DNA from: Glycomyces algeriensis
GTDB lineage: Bacteria; Actinomycetota; Actinomycetes; Mycobacteriales; Micromonosporaceae
NCBI RefSeq assembly: GCF_027622855.1
Contig: NZ_JAPZVR010000002.1
Coordinates: 308,605-372,604, forward strand
DNA length: 64,000 bases
Direction: 5' to 3'
Numbering within the stretch: the first letter of the stretch is position 1; each line of letters starts with the position of its first letter. Positions 5,067-60,800 of this stretch are shown here, in pieces. Below the pieces are notes generated by a model, which saw only the letters and a list, made by a program, of their open reading frames with translations, searched no databases and was not told where the DNA came from. Both the position numbers and the translations under genes were made by a program.

Positions 5067-6008
5067 GTGACTTCCGTACAGCCTGAAGGACGCCGGATGC
5101 TGCGCCTCGAAGTGCGCAACGCCCAGACCCCGATCGAGAAGAAACCCTCCTGGATCAAGGTCAAGGCAAAGACCGGCCCGGAATACACCGAACTGCGAAG
5201 CCTCGTCAAGAGCGAAGGCCTGCACACGGTCTGCCAAGAAGCCGGTTGCCCCAACATCTACGAGTGCTGGGAGGACCGGGAGGCGACGTTCCTCATCGGC
5301 GGCTCCCAGTGCACGCGGCGCTGCGACTTCTGCCAGATCGACACCGGCAAGCCCGACGCGCTCGACCGCGACGAGCCCCGCCGGGTCGCCGAGTCGGTGC
5401 AGACCATGGGCCTGAAGTACGCCACGATCACCGGCGTCGCCCGCGACGACCTGGACGACGGCGGCGCCTGGCTCTACGCCGAGACCGTGCGCCAGATCCA
5501 CGCGGCCGTCCCCGGCTGCGGCGTCGAGCTCCTCATCCCCGACTTCAACGCGGTCCCCGAGCAGCTCGCCGAGGTCTTCTCCTCCCGCCCCCAGGTGCTC
5601 GCGCACAACGTCGAGACCGTGCCGCGCATCTTCAAGCGCATCCGGCCCGCGTTCCGCTACGAGCGGTCCCTCGAGGTCATCACCAAGGCCCGCGAGGACG
5701 GCCTGGTCACCAAGTCGAACCTCATCCTCGGCATGGGCGAGACCCGCGAAGAGGTCTCCCAGGCCCTCAAGGACCTGCACGCCGCGGGCTGCGAGCTCAT
5801 CACCATCACGCAGTACCTGCGCCCCACCAAGCGCCACCACCCGGTGGACCGCTGGGTCAAGCCCGAGGAGTTCGTGGAACTCACCGCCGAGGCCGAGGAG
5901 ATCGGCTTCGCCGGTGTCATGAGCGGCCCGCTGGTCCGCTCCTCCTACCGGGCCGGACGCCTGTACCAGCAGGCGATCGAGGCACGCGCCGCCGCCACGC
6001 CTGTGTAG
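5067..6008 (+). CDS. lipA: lipoyl synthase
   Basis: 313 aa radical-SAM enzyme that inserts two sulfurs into protein-bound octanoate. The auxiliary cluster cysteines are C56, C61 and C67 ([12 protein letters not shown]). The radical-SAM triad is C82, C86, C89 (CTRRCDFC). The C-terminal RSSYRAG motif is present. The GTG start at 5067 is preferred over the ATG ten codons in (5097) because the extra residues match the usual actinobacterial N-terminus ending in LLRLEVRN-type sequence. It is followed 60 nt later by a DUF4191 gene, a common pairing. Its usual partner lipB is not adjacent but at 42448. Confidence 0.97.
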
Positions 6009-6068
6009 TAGAAAGCCGCAGATCAGCCCGGTCCTGCGGGTCCCCGACCGCCCATTAGAATTGACGAC

Positions 6069-6764
6069 ATGGCAAAGCAGCAGGAAAAAGAGACGTTCGG
6101 GTCGCGCCTGAAGACCATCGGGATGGCGATCAAGTTCACGCACCAGCGCGACAAGTTGTTCGTGCCGCTGGAGGCCGCCGCGATCCTGCTGCCGTTCGCG
6201 ATCATCACCGCTCTGGTGATCTTCGCGAAGTTCTCGCTGCTCTGGTATGTCAGCGCCCTGTTCGTGGCGCTTCTGGCCGGTTTGATCGTGCTCAACATGC
6301 GCACCAGCAAAGTGGTGAACAAGGAGGCCGTGGGCAAGCCGGGGGCGGCGTACGCGCTCATCGACGGCATCCGCGGCTGGCAGGTCACGCCCGGTGTGGC
6401 GGCCCTGTCCGAGACGCAGATGGTGCACCGCGCGGTCGGCAAGGCCGGCGTGGTCCTCCTCGGCGAGGGCGGCCCCAAGGTCCGCAAGCTCCTCGGCCAG
6501 GAGAAGAAGCGCATCTCCCGCGTGGTCGGCTCGACCCCGGTCTACACGTTCCTCGTCGGCGAGACCGGCGGCGACGACTTCTCGGTCACCGAGGTGCGCA
6601 AGCGCCTCATGAAGCTGCCCAAGAACATCGACTCCAAGGACGCCAACCACATCGCCAAGCGCCTTGACGCGCTCGGCATCGGCATGGCCATCCCGAAGGG
6701 CCCGATCCCGACCAGCGCCAACGCCGGCAAGGGCGCGCGCCGCGCCATGCTGCGGGGCCGCTAG
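6069..6764 (+). CDS. DUF4191 membrane protein
   Basis: 231 aa integral membrane protein of the DUF4191 family, regularly found after lipA in Actinomycetota. Two transmembrane helices lie at about residues 33-53 and 58-77. A basic cytoplasmic domain follows, with GWQVTPGVAA, a K-rich GQEKKRISRVVG stretch and a Lys/Arg-rich C-terminus. The function is unknown; the link to lipoate metabolism rests only on gene order. A strong hairpin follows at 6855. Confidence 0.9.
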   Translation: MAKQQEKETFGSRLKTIGMAIKFTHQRDKLFVPLEAAAILLPFAIITALVIFAKFSLLWYVSALFVALLAGLIVLNMRTSKVVNKEAVGKPGAAYALIDGIRGWQVTPGVAALSETQMVHRAVGKAGVVLLGEGGPKVRKLLGQEKKRISRVVGSTPVYTFLVGETGGDDFSVTEVRKRLMKLPKNIDSKDANHIAKRLDALGIGMAIPKGPIPTSANAGKGARRAMLRGR

Positions 6765-55043: not shown

Positions 55044-55655
55044 ATGGAAGCCGTCATCATCCTGCTGCTCATCGCCGCCGTCGTGTTCGGCGGCTGGTGG
55101 TTGTGGCGCAGGAACTCCCGCAAGAACGAGCCCGTCCCGCCGCGGCCCCCGGCCGACCCGTTCGCGGACGCCGACACCGACGTGCTGCGCGGCGACCCGC
55201 TGCGGCTCAAGGCCGCCGACCTGGTCGAGCTGTACGGCAAGACCCTCGCCGTGCGCGGCACCCTGCGCCTCTCGGAGGGCGACTACCAGTGGGCCGAGCA
55301 CTTCCTCGACACCGGCACCGGTGTGCGGCGCTGGCTGTCGGTCGAGGCCGACCCGGACGTGGAGATGGTGCTGTGGGAGGAGGTCACCGACACCGACCTG
55401 CAGCCCGGCGCGCGTGAACTCAGTCACGAAGGCGTCTCGTTCAAGTCGGACGAGAAGGGCAAGGCGAGGTACGTGAGCGAGGCGACGACGGGCCTGGCCC
55501 CGGCCGGTACGCTGCGCTACCACGACTACGCGGGCCCCGAGGGCCAGAAGCTGTCGTTCGAGGCGTTCGGCGACGACGCCAAGTGGGAGGTGGCGAAGGG
55601 GCTTACCCTGGACCGCAACCAGGTCACGATCTACCACCAGAGCGACGAGGCCTGA
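55044..55655 (+). CDS. DUF4178 protein, membrane-anchored
   Basis: 203 aa. One N-terminal membrane helix (residues 3-21), then a soluble beta-rich DUF4178 domain (about 60-200): VRGTLRLSEGDYQWAEHFLD, RRWLSVEADPDVEMVLWEE and KWEVAKGL. First gene of a five-to-six-gene cluster on the plus strand. DUF4178 proteins recur with DUF350 and polyamine-synthase-like genes. Function unknown. Confidence 0.85.
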   Translation: MEAVIILLLIAAVVFGGWWLWRRNSRKNEPVPPRPPADPFADADTDVLRGDPLRLKAADLVELYGKTLAVRGTLRLSEGDYQWAEHFLDTGTGVRRWLSVEADPDVEMVLWEEVTDTDLQPGARELSHEGVSFKSDEKGKARYVSEATTGLAPAGTLRYHDYAGPEGQKLSFEAFGDDAKWEVAKGLTLDRNQVTIYHQSDEA

Positions 55656-55704
55656 GCCCCGTTCCCCCGCGATCCCCCGCTCGCCTTCCCCACTGGAGCA
55701 CACG

Positions 55705-56214
55705 CTGATAGCGCATATCGAGGTGCCGTTCGTCGACGTCTCGGCGGCCTCGCTCACCTTCCGGCCCGACGCCCCGTCGATGCCGGTCCTCGACCTGCTC
55801 GAACGCGACGCCGGGCCGCTGCGGCTCTCGCTGCGGCTGCTCGGCGCGAGCCACCAGGCGGTCGTCGCGACCCCTGACGGGCTCCTCTCGGAGACCCTCG
55901 CGTACCGGTCCGACTTCGGGCCGGACCTGCCCGAGGCGTTCAGCCAGCGGGTCGGCTCGTGGCGGCACCGCTACGAGTGCAAGGTCGAGAAGCTCACGGT
56001 TCCCGAACTGCGGCAGCGGGTCCGGGCCCTGCGCGACCGCGCCTTGCTGCGCACCGGCGAACCGGACCTGCTCGTGGGCGTGTTCGGGGAGGACCTGGAC
56101 GCGCTCACGGCCCTGGAGGTCACCGGGACGGCGCCGCTCTCATGGCGGACCGTCCACACCTACCCGCAGTACGGCGAAGTCGTGACCACCCAGAGCATGG
56201 TCGTACCGACGTAG
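55705..56214 (+). CDS. DUF2617 protein (probable CTG start)
   Basis: 169 aa if it begins at CTG 55705. A GGAG ribosome site lies six bases before this CTG, and the resulting N-terminus LIAHIEVPFVDVSAASLTF has the register expected for the family, whereas the first conventional start (GTG 55723) has no ribosome site and loses six residues. The domain includes LRLLGASHQAVV and WRHRYECKVEKL. Function unknown; co-transcribed with the other cluster genes. Confidence 0.8.
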   Translation: MIAHIEVPFVDVSAASLTFRPDAPSMPVLDLLERDAGPLRLSLRLLGASHQAVVATPDGLLSETLAYRSDFGPDLPEAFSQRVGSWRHRYECKVEKLTVPELRQRVRALRDRALLRTGEPDLLVGVFGEDLDALTALEVTGTAPLSWRTVHTYPQYGEVVTTQSMVVPT

Positions 56215-56271
56215 TCGCCGTGCGCCCGTAAGCTGAACCGACTCCCCGACAGGACGACCCGAGGACCACCG

Positions 56272-56736
56272 ATGAGCAATCCGCACCCGCCCCCTCCGCC
56301 GCCCGCCACCCGCGGCCTCAACTGGAAGCACTGGACGGCGATCATCGTCGTCATCGCCCTGTGCTGCGGCGGGGTCTTCCTGATGAACTCGAACTTCTCG
56401 AACCCGACGAACACGATCCGCGACCACTACACGCGGGCCGCGAACCTCGACGAGGGCGGCGGCAGGGCGTACACGTCGCCCAACTCCCCCGCGACCGTGG
56501 CCGACCAGATCGACGACGACGCCGAGGCGCGCTCGGAGCGGTCCTCCGGCGGCACGTACTACCTGCAGTACTCCAAGCACATCGTGGCCGTCTCGCCCTA
56601 CAACGGCGGCTCGAAGATCCTGCTGCACGACTACCGCAGCGGCTACAACCACTACTCCTCCGTGTTCATCCTGTGGGGATGGTCGTCCTCACCCCCCTCG
56701 CCGTTCCGCGGCGGCGGCCCCGGCTCCGGCAAGTAG
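56272..56736 (+). CDS. DUF4247 membrane protein
   Basis: 154 aa. A Pro-rich N-terminus (HPPPPPPATRG) precedes one membrane helix (about 21-40). The extracytoplasmic part has TYYLQYSKHIVAVSPYNGGS and a conserved end FRGGGPGSGK. Matches DUF4247. Probably faces outside the membrane. Function unknown. Confidence 0.85.
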   Translation: MSNPHPPPPPPATRGLNWKHWTAIIVVIALCCGGVFLMNSNFSNPTNTIRDHYTRAANLDEGGGRAYTSPNSPATVADQIDDDAEARSERSSGGTYYLQYSKHIVAVSPYNGGSKILLHDYRSGYNHYSSVFILWGWSSSPPSPFRGGGPGSGK

Positions 56737-56772
56737 CGCGAACCCAACCCAGACAAGGAAAGGCAATCCAAC

Positions 56773-57219
56773 ATGCTCGCACAGGTTGAAAGTCAACTGG
56801 GAGGGTTCGGGGGCGACGTCGTCGGCGCACTCGCCTACAGCGTCATCGGCATCGTGCTGATGGTGCTCGGGTTCTTCATCGTCGACTGGCTCACCCCCGG
56901 CAAGCTCGGCGAACTGATCTGGACCCAGCGCAACCGCAACGCCGCACTCCTGCTCTCCTCCAACCTGGTCGGCGTCGGGCTCATCGTCGTCGGCGCGATC
57001 TGGGCCTCTGAGGGGAACCTGATCGGGGGCATCATCTCGACGTTCGTGTTCGGCGTGATCGGCCTCGGCGCGATGGCCGTCGCGTTCCTCATCCTCGACG
57101 TGATCACCCCCGGGAAGCTCGGCGCGCTCGTCGTCGACGAGGAACCGCACCCGGCCGTGTGGGTCAGCTCGGCGATGCACCTCGCCCTCGGCGGGGTCAT
57201 CGCCATGGCGCTCTCGTAA
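56773..57219 (+). CDS. DUF350 membrane protein
   Basis: 148 aa with four hydrophobic helices and two internal pseudo-repeats, each ending in a D-x-(L/I)-TPGKLG motif (DWLTPGKLGELI and DVITPGKLGALV). This repeat pattern is the DUF350 hallmark. In other bacteria DUF350 genes lie with polyamine-conjugation genes and PspA relatives. Function unknown. Confidence 0.88.
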   Translation: MLAQVESQLGGFGGDVVGALAYSVIGIVLMVLGFFIVDWLTPGKLGELIWTQRNRNAALLLSSNLVGVGLIVVGAIWASEGNLIGGIISTFVFGVIGLGAMAVAFLILDVITPGKLGALVVDEEPHPAVWVSSAMHLALGGVIAMALS

Positions 57220-57231
57220 TGCCGGTGCGTC

Positions 57232-58809
57232 TTGACCGCTGAGGCCGCCCCTCGAACCGTGATGCCGGCGCGCCGGGTTCGCCTGGCGCGCTTCGGTCTG
57301 CTCGCCACCGCCTTCGCGGTCTCGGCGTGCGGGCTCGTGTACGAACTGGCGCTCATCACCCTGGGCGCCTACCTGGTCGGGAACACCGCGAAGCAGGCGT
57401 CGATCGTCCTGGCCGTCATGGTGTTCGCGATGGGGCTCGGCGCGCTGGCGGCGAAGCCGCTGCGCCGCTGGCCCGCGCTGGCGTTCGCCGCGGTCGAGCT
57501 CGCCCTCGCGCTGCTGGGCGGCTTCAGCGTCATGCTGCTGTACGCGGCGTTCTCCTGGACCGACCTGTACAGCCTGCCGCTCGTGCTCGTGGCGGCCGCG
57601 ATCGGGCTCCTGATCGGCGCGGAGATCCCGCTGCTCATGGAGCTCCTGCAGCGCATCCGGGAGCAGGCCGCGGGCGCGGCCGTCGCGGACCTCAACGCCG
57701 CGGACTACCTGGGCGGGCTCATCGGCGGCCTGGCGTTCCCGTTCATCCTGCTGCCGTTCTTCGGGCAGATCCAGGGCGCGCTCCTCGTCGGCGCCGTCAA
57801 CGCGGTCGCCGGGGTCCTGCTGGTGTGGATCCTGTTCCGCCACGACCTCGCGAAGGCCGCGAAGCAGCTGCTCACCGTCGTCGCGGCGCTCACGGCGGTG
57901 CTCCTGGTGGCCGCGTTCGCGTACACCGGGAAGTTCGAGACCGCGGCCCGGCAGGCCCTGTACGCGGCCCCGATCGTCTACAGCGAGGACAGCCAGTACC
58001 AGCAGATCGTCATGACCGAGGCCGCCTCGCCGTTCGGCGAGCAGGACCTGCGGCTCTACCTCAACGGCGACCTGCAGTTCTCCTCAGTGGACGAATACCG
58101 GTACCATGAGGCGCTCGTCCACCCGGCCATGAACGGCCCCCACGAGAACGTCCTGGTCCTCGGCGGCGGCGACGGCCTCGCCGTGCGCGAGATCCTCCGC
58201 TACCCCGACGTCGCCACGGTGACCCTGGTCGACCTCGACGGGGCCGTCACCGACCTCGCCCGCGAGTTCGACGACCTGGTGGCGCTCAACGAGAACGCCA
58301 TGAACGACCCCAAGGTCGAGGTCGTCAACGCGGACGCGTTCACCTGGCTGCGCGAGCAACACGGCACCTGGGACACGATCATCGTCGACATGCCCGACCC
58401 CGACGCGACCGAGACCGCGAAGCTCTACTCCGTCGAGTTCTACGGCCTCGCCACCGACCACCTCGCCGAGGCCGGCCGGATGGTCGTCCAGGCCGGCTCC
58501 CCGTACTTCGCGCCGAAGACGTTCTGGACCATCGCCTCGACCCTCGAGGCGGCCGGCCACGCGCCCGCCCCGTACTGGGTGTCCGTGCCCAGCTTCGGCG
58601 ACTGGGGCTACATGCTCGTCCAGGCCGGCGGCGACGTTCCCGACCTCGGCCTCGACACGTCGATCGGCCCGTTCCAGTCCCTCACGCCCGAACTCATCGA
58701 AGCCGCGCAGGTGTTCCCGCCCGACCGCGACCGCATGGACATGGAGCCCTCCACGCTCATGCGCCCGGTGATCCTCGACCGGGTCGAATCCGAGTGGAAC
58801 AACTACTGA
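57232..58809 (+). CDS. membrane-bound spermidine-synthase-like protein
   Basis: 525 aa. The N-terminal half has about seven transmembrane helices (residues 20-240: CGLVYELALITLGAYLVGN). The C-terminal half is a polyamine aminopropyltransferase fold: LNGDLQFSSVDEYRYHEALV, VLVLGGGDGLAVREIL, LVDLDGAV, NADAFTWL and IIVDMPDPD. The catalytic aspartate-containing DMPDPD replaces the usual DSSDP. Start uncertain: TTG 57232, or GTG-ATG at 57259/57262. Last of the DUF4178-DUF2617-DUF4247-DUF350 cluster. True substrate unknown. Confidence 0.85.
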   Translation: MTAEAAPRTVMPARRVRLARFGLLATAFAVSACGLVYELALITLGAYLVGNTAKQASIVLAVMVFAMGLGALAAKPLRRWPALAFAAVELALALLGGFSVMLLYAAFSWTDLYSLPLVLVAAAIGLLIGAEIPLLMELLQRIREQAAGAAVADLNAADYLGGLIGGLAFPFILLPFFGQIQGALLVGAVNAVAGVLLVWILFRHDLAKAAKQLLTVVAALTAVLLVAAFAYTGKFETAARQALYAAPIVYSEDSQYQQIVMTEAASPFGEQDLRLYLNGDLQFSSVDEYRYHEALVHPAMNGPHENVLVLGGGDGLAVREILRYPDVATVTLVDLDGAVTDLAREFDDLVALNENAMNDPKVEVVNADAFTWLREQHGTWDTIIVDMPDPDATETAKLYSVEFYGLATDHLAEAGRMVVQAGSPYFAPKTFWTIASTLEAAGHAPAPYWVSVPSFGDWGYMLVQAGGDVPDLGLDTSIGPFQSLTPELIEAAQVFPPDRDRMDMEPSTLMRPVILDRVESEWNNY

Positions 58810-58859
58810 GGTAGCCTGGCGGCCTTGCCCCTGCCCTTACTCCCAGCACAGGAAACAAC

Positions 58860-59270
58860 ATGTCGCAACAACCGAACCCCTACCTCCTCACCGTCCGGCT
58901 CGGCACCGCCCAGCGGGTCCTCCTCATCGTCCTCGGCGGCCTGCTGACCCTCCTCGCCGTGTTCGCCCTCACGCTGGGCGGGTTCAGCATCTACCTCATC
59001 CTGGGCCCGCTGTTCCTGCTCATGGGCATCCTCTCGACCACGAACCCGTACCTCCGCTTCGACACCGCCACCGGCGAGCTGGGCCTCTACTCGCCGCTCG
59101 GCTTCAAGTCGCGCACCTACGGCGCCCCCAAGGGCGAGAGCATCTACTACCAGGCGGCCACCGGCAAGATCATGCGCGCGCTGCCGAACGGCACCCACCG
59201 CAAGGTGAGCACCTTCGGCGTCGACCGCAACGAACTCGCCCGCGTCATCGCCGCCCTCCCCCAGGGCTGA
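58860..59270 (+). CDS. small membrane protein
   Basis: 136 aa with two hydrophobic segments (about 20-40 and 43-62) and a soluble C-terminus (RFDTATGELGLYSPLGFKSR, KVSTFGVDRNELARVIAALP) that looks like a small beta domain. It follows the spermidine-synthase-like gene by 50 nt and precedes the terminator, so it is probably in the same operon. Not recognised as a named family. Confidence 0.7.
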   Translation: MSQQPNPYLLTVRLGTAQRVLLIVLGGLLTLLAVFALTLGGFSIYLILGPLFLLMGILSTTNPYLRFDTATGELGLYSPLGFKSRTYGAPKGESIYYQAATGKIMRALPNGTHRKVSTFGVDRNELARVIAALPQG

Positions 59271-59284
59271 ACTACCGCATAGAA

Positions 59285-59318
59285 CGAAAGGCCCGAGCGT
59301 CAGCGCTCGGGCCTTTCG
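59285..59318. terminator. bidirectional terminator hairpin
   Basis: Perfect 15-bp stem (59285-59299 with 59304-59318) with a TCAG loop, ending the plus-strand cluster and the minus-strand Lnt-like gene. Confidence 0.88.
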
Positions 59319-59336
59319 TCAACTGCCGGCAGGGGT

Positions 59337-60800
59337 TCACGCAGCGGCGAGCTCCACCTCCGGCCGATCGCGCTCGCGCTCGGGCCTGCGCTTGGGGAAG
59401 GCGGCGGCGACGCCCGCCAGGAGGATCAGCAGCACGGGGAACAGGAACCAGTTCCCCAACCGCCCGTAGACGGTCGCCACATGACCGGTCGGGACATCGG
59501 CGATCGCGAGCCGCTCGTCCTCCGCGAGGACCTCGCCGGAGGCGTCGCTGACGGTCATCAGGCCGATCTGCCCCGCCCGCACGAGCGAGAACCCCTGCTC
59601 CACACCGCGGGTGACGGCGACACGGCTGTGCCACCATCCGTCCACAGTGAAGTCGAGCGCCGGAGCCAGCACCAGACCGGCGCCCGCGTCCCCATACTCG
59701 CTGATCGTCCCGGCGTGGTCGAGGTCCTTGCAGATCGTCAACGCCCACCGCTCGCCGGCGACGAACGTCGGCCCCGCGTCGGACGCGGTCATCCAATCCT
59801 CCAGGCCCGGGATGAGGTGCTGCTTGTGGTACTCGGCCGGCCCCGCACCGTCGGCGGGGAGCCACACGGCCGCGTTGACCGTGCCCGCGCCTTGGTCGAT
59901 CGCCAGACCGAGCACCAGGTCGATCCCGGACTCGACGGCCAGTGCCGACCAGCGGTCGAGATAAGGGCCGGCCTCCTCGGCGGTGACGTGGAAGATCTTC
60001 TCGGACAGGACGAGCACGTCGATGTCGTCACCGTCCCCGAGGCGGGTGATCTCGGCCCGGTAGTCGGCGAACAGGCGCTCGCCCTTGTCGGTGTCGGTGC
60101 GGATCGAGTCCTCGTCGGTGGGGAGTGCGAGGGCCGCGGCGCGGATCGTCTCGCCCTGGTCGACGGGCCTGGCGAGTCCGAAGGCGAGGGTCGCGGCGAG
60201 ACAGGCGGCCGCGGTGGCGGCGATGCCGATGCGGCCCCGGCGTTCCGCGCCGGGGGCGAGCATCGCCGCGGCCGCGGTCGGGACGGCGGTGAGGAGGAAC
60301 GTCAGGCCCCAGACCCCGGTGACCGACACGAGTTGCAGGACCGCGGGGTGGTCGGCCTGGGTGTAGGCGAAACTCCACCATTCGCCGCCGGCTTCGGCGT
60401 TGATGACCGAGCCGAGGTATTCGACGGCGACGACTCCGGCGGGCATGGCGAGGAACGCGAACCAGTGGCGTCCGCGCCGGACGAGGCCCCGGTAGAGGAG
60501 GGTGACGGCGGTGTAGAGCCCGGTGAAGACGAGCGCGGAGACGATGACGAACGCCGGGGGCATCTCGAGGGAGGCCGCGAGGTAGGCCCAGATGCGGGAG
60601 GTGCCGCCGAGCCAGGCGAGTTCGGCGGCGAGGAGGGCGGTCCAGAAGCCGACGCGCGGGACGACGAGCAGCAGGGGCACGGGCGCGATCCACATGAGCC
60701 AGGAGACGGGGTCGAGGGCGAATCCGAAGGCGTACAGGAGGGCGGTCGCGGCGGCGGCGCCGAGCGCCCAGGGCAGGGGTCGGTCAAGCGAGGATGCCAT
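59337..60800 (-). CDS. apolipoprotein N-acyltransferase-like protein
   Basis: 487 aa. N-terminal membrane region (about six helices to residue 215), then a carbon-nitrogen hydrolase domain with the E-K-C triad E267 (LSEKIFH), K326 (EYHKQHLIPG) and C357 (LTICKDLDH), then a C-terminal helix. This is the Lnt architecture; N-acylation of lipoproteins in actinobacteria is known. The sequence deviates from Lnt (the active-site block is short), so a different amide acyltransferase is possible. It overlaps the TetR gene by 17 nt. Confidence 0.82.
   Translation of the reverse strand: MASSLDRPLPWALGAAAATALLYAFGFALDPVSWLMWIAPVPLLLVVPRVGFWTALLAAELAWLGGTSRIWAYLAASLEMPPAFVIVSALVFTGLYTAVTLLYRGLVRRGRHWFAFLAMPAGVVAVEYLGSVINAEAGGEWWSFAYTQADHPAVLQLVSVTGVWGLTFLLTAVPTAAAAMLAPGAERRGRIGIAATAAACLAATLAFGLARPVDQGETIRAAALALPTDEDSIRTDTDKGERLFADYRAEITRLGDGDDIDVLVLSEKIFHVTAEEAGPYLDRWSALAVESGIDLVLGLAIDQGAGTVNAAVWLPADGAGPAEYHKQHLIPGLEDWMTASDAGPTFVAGERWALTICKDLDHAGTISEYGDAGAGLVLAPALDFTVDGWWHSRVAVTRGVEQGFSLVRAGQIGLMTVSDASGEVLAEDERLAIADVPTGHVATVYGRLGNWFLFPVLLILLAGVAAAFPKRRPERERDRPEVELAAA

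Follow-up and report, generated by a model that had tools for sequence, protein, structure and literature searches.

On the forward strand of a 64,000-nucleotide stretch of Glycomyces algeriensis DNA (contig NZ_JAPZVR010000002.1, positions 308,605 to 372,604; hereafter the window), genes of the families DUF4178, DUF2617, DUF4247 and DUF350 stand in a row before the gene for a membrane-fused SpeE, an aminopropyltransferase. We think it likely that this five-gene block specifies a membrane-anchored aminopropylation system, in which DUF2617, as a diverged S-adenosylmethionine (AdoMet) decarboxylase, would feed the membrane SpeE. Clusters of this kind are known; what is new is the candidate role of DUF2617, which is drawn from genome patterns, motifs and profile similarity. 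The balance of the evidence also leans towards DUF2617 being the AdoMet decarboxylase that has been missing in Actinobacteria and haloarchaea. It would be a compact enzyme that processes itself, within a dedicated membrane amine-modification system that perhaps does not make free spermidine.

Occurrence of DUF2617 and SpeD

Aminopropyl transfer requires decarboxylated AdoMet (dcAdoMet), the product of SpeD. The G. algeriensis genome holds one Spermine_synth protein and one DUF2617 protein; a search of the same genome for SpeD (PF02675) gave no match. Comparisons were based on 80 named loci with a SpeE of the PRK03612 type, which were the best among 570 confirmed stretches. SpeD was searched for in 76 of the 80 genomes (L159, L167, L172 and L191, on short contigs, were excluded) and DUF2617 genome-wide in 50 of the 76, the remaining 26 being judged from the locus. 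DUF2617 is present in 35 of the 50 and absent from 15; SpeD occurs in all 15 that lack it and in one of the 35 that have it, a metagenome-assembled genome (L138). None of the remaining 26 has SpeD; 25 have DUF2617 in the locus, and in L181 the site is hidden by a contig edge. Across the 75 long-SpeE genomes of known state, SpeD is thus found in 15/15 without DUF2617 and in 1/60 with it, an inverse pattern for which Fisher's test gives p = 7e-15 when kinship is ignored. All three DUF2617-less lineages on the SpeE tree carry SpeD.

Broader samples show the same picture. Among 148 genomes of the window's class, DUF2617 is found in 27, all within the 30 genomes with a Spermine_synth match of at least 70 bits; the three that lack it (G031, G107 and G078) all have SpeD. 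An overlapping sample of 246 genomes from the phylum includes 16 with PRK03612 above cut-off. DUF2617 is above cut-off in 14 of these and nowhere else (a match in G356, below cut-off, was not counted), and SpeD is present in the two without it (G031 and G107). The DUF2617 carriers outside the window's class (G335 and G372) are without SpeD. Of 14 control genomes only those of C. glutamicum and H. volcanii match DUF2617; both have Spermine_synth and neither has PF02675.

Outside the Actinobacteria, a search of plasmids with SpeE matched 48 records, of which ten were examined: six from among the twelve whose match spans 80% or more of the query, together with four from haloarchaea. SpeD lies near the membrane SpeE in five of the six proteobacterial and gemmatimonadal loci (Novosphingobium, Ensifer, Gemmatirosa, Burkholderia and Alteromonas), and DUF2617 in none of the six. 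In three haloarchaeal loci (two Halorussus, one Natribaculum) the SpeE has 590-628 residues and 5-7 hydrophobic segments, and DUF2617 is the next gene in all three; the public record of one itself annotates the gene as DUF2617. A Halobaculum locus has a SpeE of 302 residues with no hydrophobic segments and an ordinary SpeD adjoining. A tblastn search of plasmids with the window's DUF2617 as query gave no match. According to a 2016 paper, no AdoMet decarboxylase has been found in any sequenced halophile (PMC5178350), a statement with which the SpeD of Halobaculum does not agree.

Several loci show peculiarities of their own. On the Novosphingobium plasmid (L226, 3639-9459) an SPFH gene is followed by two DUF4178 genes, a small gene, DUF350, the membrane SpeE, an FAD-dependent oxidoreductase and SpeD. 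In G107 (L028, L097), G156, G159 and G174, SpeD lies within an open reading frame (ORF) of 408-416 codons; that of G107 continues into a domain resembling SpeE, so that SpeD and SpeE are fused, and the genome has a membrane SpeE at another site as well. In the PF02675 proteins of L030 and L031 (from G112 and G018, Streptomyces as judged from group code and tree) ASH stands for ESH and Tyr for Cys, which are also the two changes found in the Glycomyces DUF2617; the genes concerned are not close to SpeE, and their role may be a different one. Several Streptomyces genomes (G177, G189, G190, G192 and G196) have two DUF2617 matches each.

Sequence and structure of DUF2617

A set of 87 DUF2617 sequences was compared, including one haloarchaeal member (two more haloarchaeal sequences fell below threshold). 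Ser48, His49, Glu62, Thr134, His150, Tyr152 and Pro153 are invariant in 87/87. At residue 66, 77 sequences have Cys and ten have Tyr; the ten are the window's copy, seven other Glycomyces copies and two others. The haloarchaeal form is exemplified by IIGESHYVG...HEVCSC...YHTYPEHG; GESH is found in Halorussus caseinilyticus and Natribaculum breve, and GASH in Halorussus aquaticus. Among 25 SpeD sequences all have ESH, ASH or QSH, followed by Cys in 23 and Tyr in two, in the layout ESH...HTWPE...C. On the numbering assumed here for SpeD, Ser48 would correspond to the pyruvoyl serine, residue 66 to the general acid, and Thr134 and His150 to the helper pair.

Comparison of profiles points the same way. 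With hhalign, 83 DUF2617 sequences (rows of at least 190 residues omitted, three haloarchaeal sequences added) matched the 25 SpeD sequences with a score of 31.3, P = 1.7e-4 and a probability of 49%; an earlier comparison with few sequences was weak (4%). The alignment places His150 of DUF2617 on the His of the SpeD HTWP/HTYP motif. Column-permuted SpeD profiles, 400 in number, scored no higher than 23.0, and 26 families of neighbouring ORFs, some perhaps spurious, no higher than 17.8. The signal is carried by the second half of DUF2617, which alone scores 30.5, a value reached by 0/150 permuted profiles and 0/26 families.

AlphaFold2 models of DUF2617 have a mean predicted local distance difference test score of 93.3 for the window's copy and 95.5 for that of Salinispora. 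The second half is modelled as a strand, a helix and four strands; an order of strand, helix and strands is also that of SpeD. In a VIA-align search with the window model, ranks 1, 6, 7 and 17 go to AdoMet decarboxylases and rank 13 to the N-domain of human spermine synthase, with Z of 3.7-4.6. For both models the alignments to the human and potato enzymes start at DUF2617 residue 49 or 50, on residue 69 (human) or 74 (potato), which we take to be the first after the pyruvoyl serine; because the chains of the human and potato structures may themselves begin there, the start point is a hint only. On the Thermotoga maritima enzyme, residues 84-168 align with 2-86, which brings His150 near what we believe to be His68, provided that there is no net gap between. 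The modelled structure is compatible with, but not distinctive of, an AdoMet decarboxylase.

A mechanism can be proposed. DUF2617 would cleave itself before Ser48 to leave a pyruvoyl group, assisted by two residues of the second half, His150 and Thr134. The pyruvoyl form would decarboxylate AdoMet, and the putative proton donor is residue 66, a Cys in most sequences and a Tyr in Glycomyces. The window's DUF2617, with its Tyr for Cys, may be weaker or altered. The dcAdoMet would then pass to the membrane SpeE domain, which would transfer its aminopropyl group to an amine acceptor. DUF350, DUF4247 and DUF4178 would be membrane or envelope partners, and their presence suggests a membrane or envelope role.

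In one locus (L077, about 5642-6397) a repetitive insert of some 53 residues, rich in Gly, Ala, Pro and Thr, lies between Ser48 and Glu62, in the hairpin that follows the proposed catalytic Ser. In G169 (locus L161) the DUF2617 match is split in two, which would fit a similar insert.

Counter-evidence and alternative explanations

A number of observations weigh against a decarboxylase role for DUF2617. The window's copy is without Cys66, the residue before Ser48 is mostly Ala and not Glu, and Thr134 stands where, on the numbering assumed above, SpeD would have Ser. PF02675 and PF01536 matched none of 23 DUF2617 sequences at E values up to 10 (the program's filters drop weak matches), and no PDB chain was found for DUF2617 by sequence (HMMER). 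Nine of 400 block-shuffled SpeD profiles scored as high as the real match, so that the match rests on a local motif. The first half of DUF2617 alone scores 15.7, a value reached by 4/150 permuted profiles and 1/26 families and so suggestive at most, and an internal duplication is not supported, as the halves are dissimilar (score 7.4). Foldseek searches against the PDB and viral models returned nothing at E 0.001 or better. The top rank of an AdoMet decarboxylase for the window model is tied with other folds, and for the Salinispora model these enzymes fall to ranks 10, 28 and 30, with PsbP, START-like and LpqN folds level or above.

The occurrence data add to this list. The DUF2617 state changes only three times on the SpeE tree (88 rows), two of the changes being forced by well-supported branches, and the pairs are too few for a paired test to attain significance. 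DUF2617 and SpeD occur together in three genomes: L138, and G018 and G112 from the 27 carriers of the class sample. The control Lactococcus lactis has a Spermine_synth match but neither SpeD nor DUF2617, and in Tritonibacter neither was seen near SpeE. Searches of the literature turned up no polyamine measurements for Glycomyces. Finally, spermidine was undetectable in H. volcanii under the conditions described in PMC5178350, so that the product there may differ from spermidine.

The alternative that fares best makes DUF2617 a non-catalytic partner, which would bind AdoMet or dcAdoMet or, like a prozyme, activate another decarboxylase, with dcAdoMet supplied by a different enzyme. The weakness of the overall similarity to SpeD would suit such a partner, as would Tyr for Cys in eight Glycomyces copies and two others, and the Ala that mostly replaces Glu before the Ser. 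We nevertheless consider it unlikely: the five residues from Ser48 to His150 listed above are unchanged throughout the 87 sequences, and all but one of the 60 DUF2617-bearing named genomes are devoid of a PF02675 protein that it could activate.

A second explanation turns on SpeE, which in DUF2617 genomes would use AdoMet itself, for methyl or aminocarboxypropyl transfer, and DUF2617 would be unrelated to the reaction. The lack of a recognised AdoMet decarboxylase in these genomes is what this would predict. The fifth protein of the block is classed by NCBIfam as a polyamine aminopropyltransferase, PRK03612 (654 bits against a cut-off of 472, residues 9-515), with seven hydrophobic segments within its first 225 residues by hydropathy scan, and the solved proteins closest to it are thermospermine synthase and polyamine aminopropyltransferases. 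The pocket residues of PRK03612, including the DxxDP pair, are present in the window. The initial annotation had taken DMPDPD as a possible sign of a substrate other than putrescine. That idea was rejected: the aspartates align with DLADP/DLTDP of solved aminopropyltransferases and the pair is kept in 88/88 relatives, so that the motif is the ordinary acidic pair of spermidine synthases and gives no hint of a new substrate. Twelve pocket positions are the same in SpeD- and DUF2617-partnered lineages of the Actinobacteria, save H282 and D304 (kept in 68/72 and 71/72 on the DUF2617 side). As the pocket is nearly unchanged, dcAdoMet is the simplest choice of donor for either set of lineages. With SpeD also present in each of the three DUF2617-less lineages, direct use of AdoMet seems distinctly improbable.

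The last explanation, that the exclusion reflects shared ancestry only and that DUF2617 serves the block in some unrelated structural or regulatory capacity, draws on the small number of independent changes, the powerless paired test and the generic fold matches, but is very improbable given that the pattern repeats in haloarchaeal loci and control genomes and that DUF2617 matches SpeD in motif and profile.

On the acceptor side, the G. algeriensis genome has two PF02784 matches, LysA and a siderophore-type fused decarboxylase (the latter label being a reading of weak NCBIfam matches); the search, which covered the PF02784 fold, found no ornithine decarboxylase.

The five-gene block and its relation to known systems

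The block and the sixth gene lie on the plus strand between 55044 and 59270, with intergenic gaps of 36-57 bases, and all six are genuine genes (Table 1). SpeE also matches Spermine_synth (E 1.9e-34). By hydropathy scan hydrophobic segments occur in DUF4178 (N-terminal), DUF4247, DUF350 and the sixth protein as well as in SpeE; DUF2617 alone has none. DUF2617 probably starts at CTG 55705, which has a GGAG before it and lines up with where the relatives start, or else at GTG 55723; for SpeE, GTG 57259 or ATG 57262 is more likely than TTG 57232.

Table 1. Positions in the window of the genes, of proposed functional residues and of the downstream hairpin.
Feature	Position	Strand	Basis
DUF4178 protein, 203 residues, N-terminal hydrophobic segment	55044..55655	+	Pfam PF13785 6.6e-33; hydropathy
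DUF2617 protein, 168-169 residues, soluble, proposed AdoMet decarboxylase-like enzyme	55705..56214	+	Pfam PF10936 3.4e-35; AlphaFold2; inverse occurrence with SpeD; profile match
DUF2617 Ser48 codon (LGASH; residue 1 = 55708), proposed self-cleavage/pyruvoyl serine	55849..55851	+	conservation; putative role
DUF2617 residue 66 codon, Tyr in the window, proposed general-acid position	55903..55905	+	Cys in most relatives; putative role
DUF2617 Thr134 codon, proposed helper Ser/Thr	56107..56109	+	invariant in 87/87; putative role
DUF2617 His150 codon (T-x-H-x-Y-P), proposed helper histidine	56155..56157	+	87/87; hhalign to SpeD HTWP/HTYP His
DUF4247 protein, 154 residues, one hydrophobic segment close to N-terminus	56272..56736	+	Pfam PF14042 1e-23; hydropathy
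DUF350 (YjfL-type) membrane protein, 148 residues	56773..57219	+	Pfam PF03994 6.4e-26; hydropathy
Membrane SpeE, 7 hydrophobic segments and aminopropyltransferase domain (PRK03612)	57259..58809	+	NCBIfam NF002956 654 bits; PF01564; alignment; hydropathy
SpeE DMPD, DxxDP acidic pair (D376, D379 from ATG 57262)	58387..58398	+	kept in 88/88 relatives; alignment with DLTDP/DLADP
Sixth gene, 136-residue membrane protein	58860..59270	+	no Pfam/NCBIfam family above cut-off; Glycomyces loci only
16-bp hairpin between convergent genes, no T-run after	59284..59319	+	folding energy; absent from terminator scan list

Pfam and NCBIfam matches bear out what had been read from the sequence, namely DUF4178, DUF2617, DUF4247 and DUF350 genes and one for a membrane-fused aminopropyltransferase-like protein, packed on the plus strand. 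They also bear out that the set lacks PspA, since the six genes fall in other families or in none; the family scan, which covered these genes and the Lnt-like flanking gene, found neither PspA nor CesT/Tir in the block (other ORFs close by were judged by reading, and no genome-wide PspA search was made). The polyamine-type membrane set had been recognised at that stage, but the absence of SpeD and the apparent replacement of SpeD by DUF2617 had been missed. At the strong terminator proposed for the end of the run the hairpin is strong (-32.6 kcal/mol, z -6.5), but no T-run follows, and it is absent from the output of the terminator scan. Convergent with the cluster, at 59337-60800 on the minus strand, lies an apolipoprotein N-acyltransferase-like gene (LNT_N and CN_hydrolase domains) below the NCBIfam lnt cut-off.

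The order of the five-gene block is conserved across Actinobacteria. The nearest relatives of the window's SpeE, among the 80 loci, are seven Glycomyces copies with 78-94% identity. Of 66 named loci with full flanks, 36 have all five families; 12 are without DUF2617 only, 10 without DUF4178 only and six without a recognisable DUF4247, and the remaining two have DUF4247, DUF350 and SpeE alone. The sixth gene had been counted as part of the system, and here co-conservation fails. Homologues were found in six of the 80 named loci (the loci were searched, not whole genomes), all Glycomyces and five of them just downstream of SpeE; the sixth, a weak match in L131 (E 5e-5), lies about 6.7 kb further on, and the Glycomyces locus L135 has none. 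A further 38 loci, a set that includes some chosen for SpeD or DUF4178 alone and not all with the operon, yielded none. The protein itself has no Pfam match at E 0.1 and no NCBIfam family above cut-off. Because its homologues are, in the loci searched, limited to Glycomyces, the sixth gene was rejected as a member: the system is the five-gene block, and the sixth gene, a local addition, probably lies outside it.

Two departures from the usual arrangement were seen. In L086 (7023-8564, from G128) SpeE is apparently split over two adjacent frames and DUF350 precedes DUF4178. L087-L093 are two-gene loci of DUF2617 and a more divergent SpeE, found alongside the full operon type.

Kinship with PspA-associated operons, also proposed in the initial annotation, agrees with the passage of PMC11237479 on operons of DUF350, SpeE and DUF4178 with a CesT/Tir-PspA pair, which includes a variant where DUF4247 and DUF2617 replace that pair (PspA-less accessions CCP45394.1 and CCP45395.1). 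The window's block is made of the same gene families and has no PspA or CesT/Tir gene. We take the two accessions to be from M. tuberculosis. In E. coli the yjfIJKLMC region likewise places DUF350 beside polyamine-type genes; the window's block differs in having no ATP-grasp ligase and a PRK03612 SpeE instead. The passage of PMC11237479 does not list the five genes together; a membrane or envelope role is proposed there for polyamine-linked PspA operons. The literature passages on DUF2617, this one included, make no link to AdoMet decarboxylase.

Set beside SpeD (PF02675), DUF2617 shares the Ser-His of the xSH motif, usually a later Cys, the HTYP/HTWP motif and SpeE as genomic partner. It differs in having no match to the SpeD hidden Markov model, in its length of about 165 residues, over which the Ser falls in the first half but the HTYP-like motif in the second, and in its usual Ala before the Ser, Thr for Ser and, in Glycomyces, Tyr for Cys. 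As it does not match the family profile, DUF2617 is not counted as a member of PF02675; it is probably a remote relative that would work like one. The eukaryotic AdoMet decarboxylases (human, potato) have two repeats per chain, with the pyruvoyl Ser and Cys in the first and the helper Ser and His in the second. This division of residues between halves resembles the one proposed for DUF2617; however, DUF2617 does not reach two thirds of the 253-254 residues of the chains listed, its first half is rudimentary, its halves are dissimilar and Z is only 4.0-4.7.

Spermidine has been reported in Streptomyces coelicolor (PMC9397018). SpeD is present in none of the 12 named Streptomyces genomes searched, S. 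coelicolor not being among them. A decarboxylase role for DUF2617 could explain this spermidine despite the SpeD-less Streptomyces genomes.

A parallel is seen in Haloferax volcanii, whose SpeE homologues HVO_0255 and HVO_B0357 carry seven transmembrane segments without a recognised AdoMet decarboxylase (PMC5178350), and whose genome matches DUF2617. The organism differs in being archaeal; where its dcAdoMet comes from is posed as a question in the paper, which apparently does not name DUF2617. If DUF2617 is the decarboxylase, the haloarchaeal question has an answer that is directly testable, an orphan family gains a function, the pyruvoyl AdoMet decarboxylases gain a diverged branch, and the polyamine step common to the membrane operons becomes apparent.

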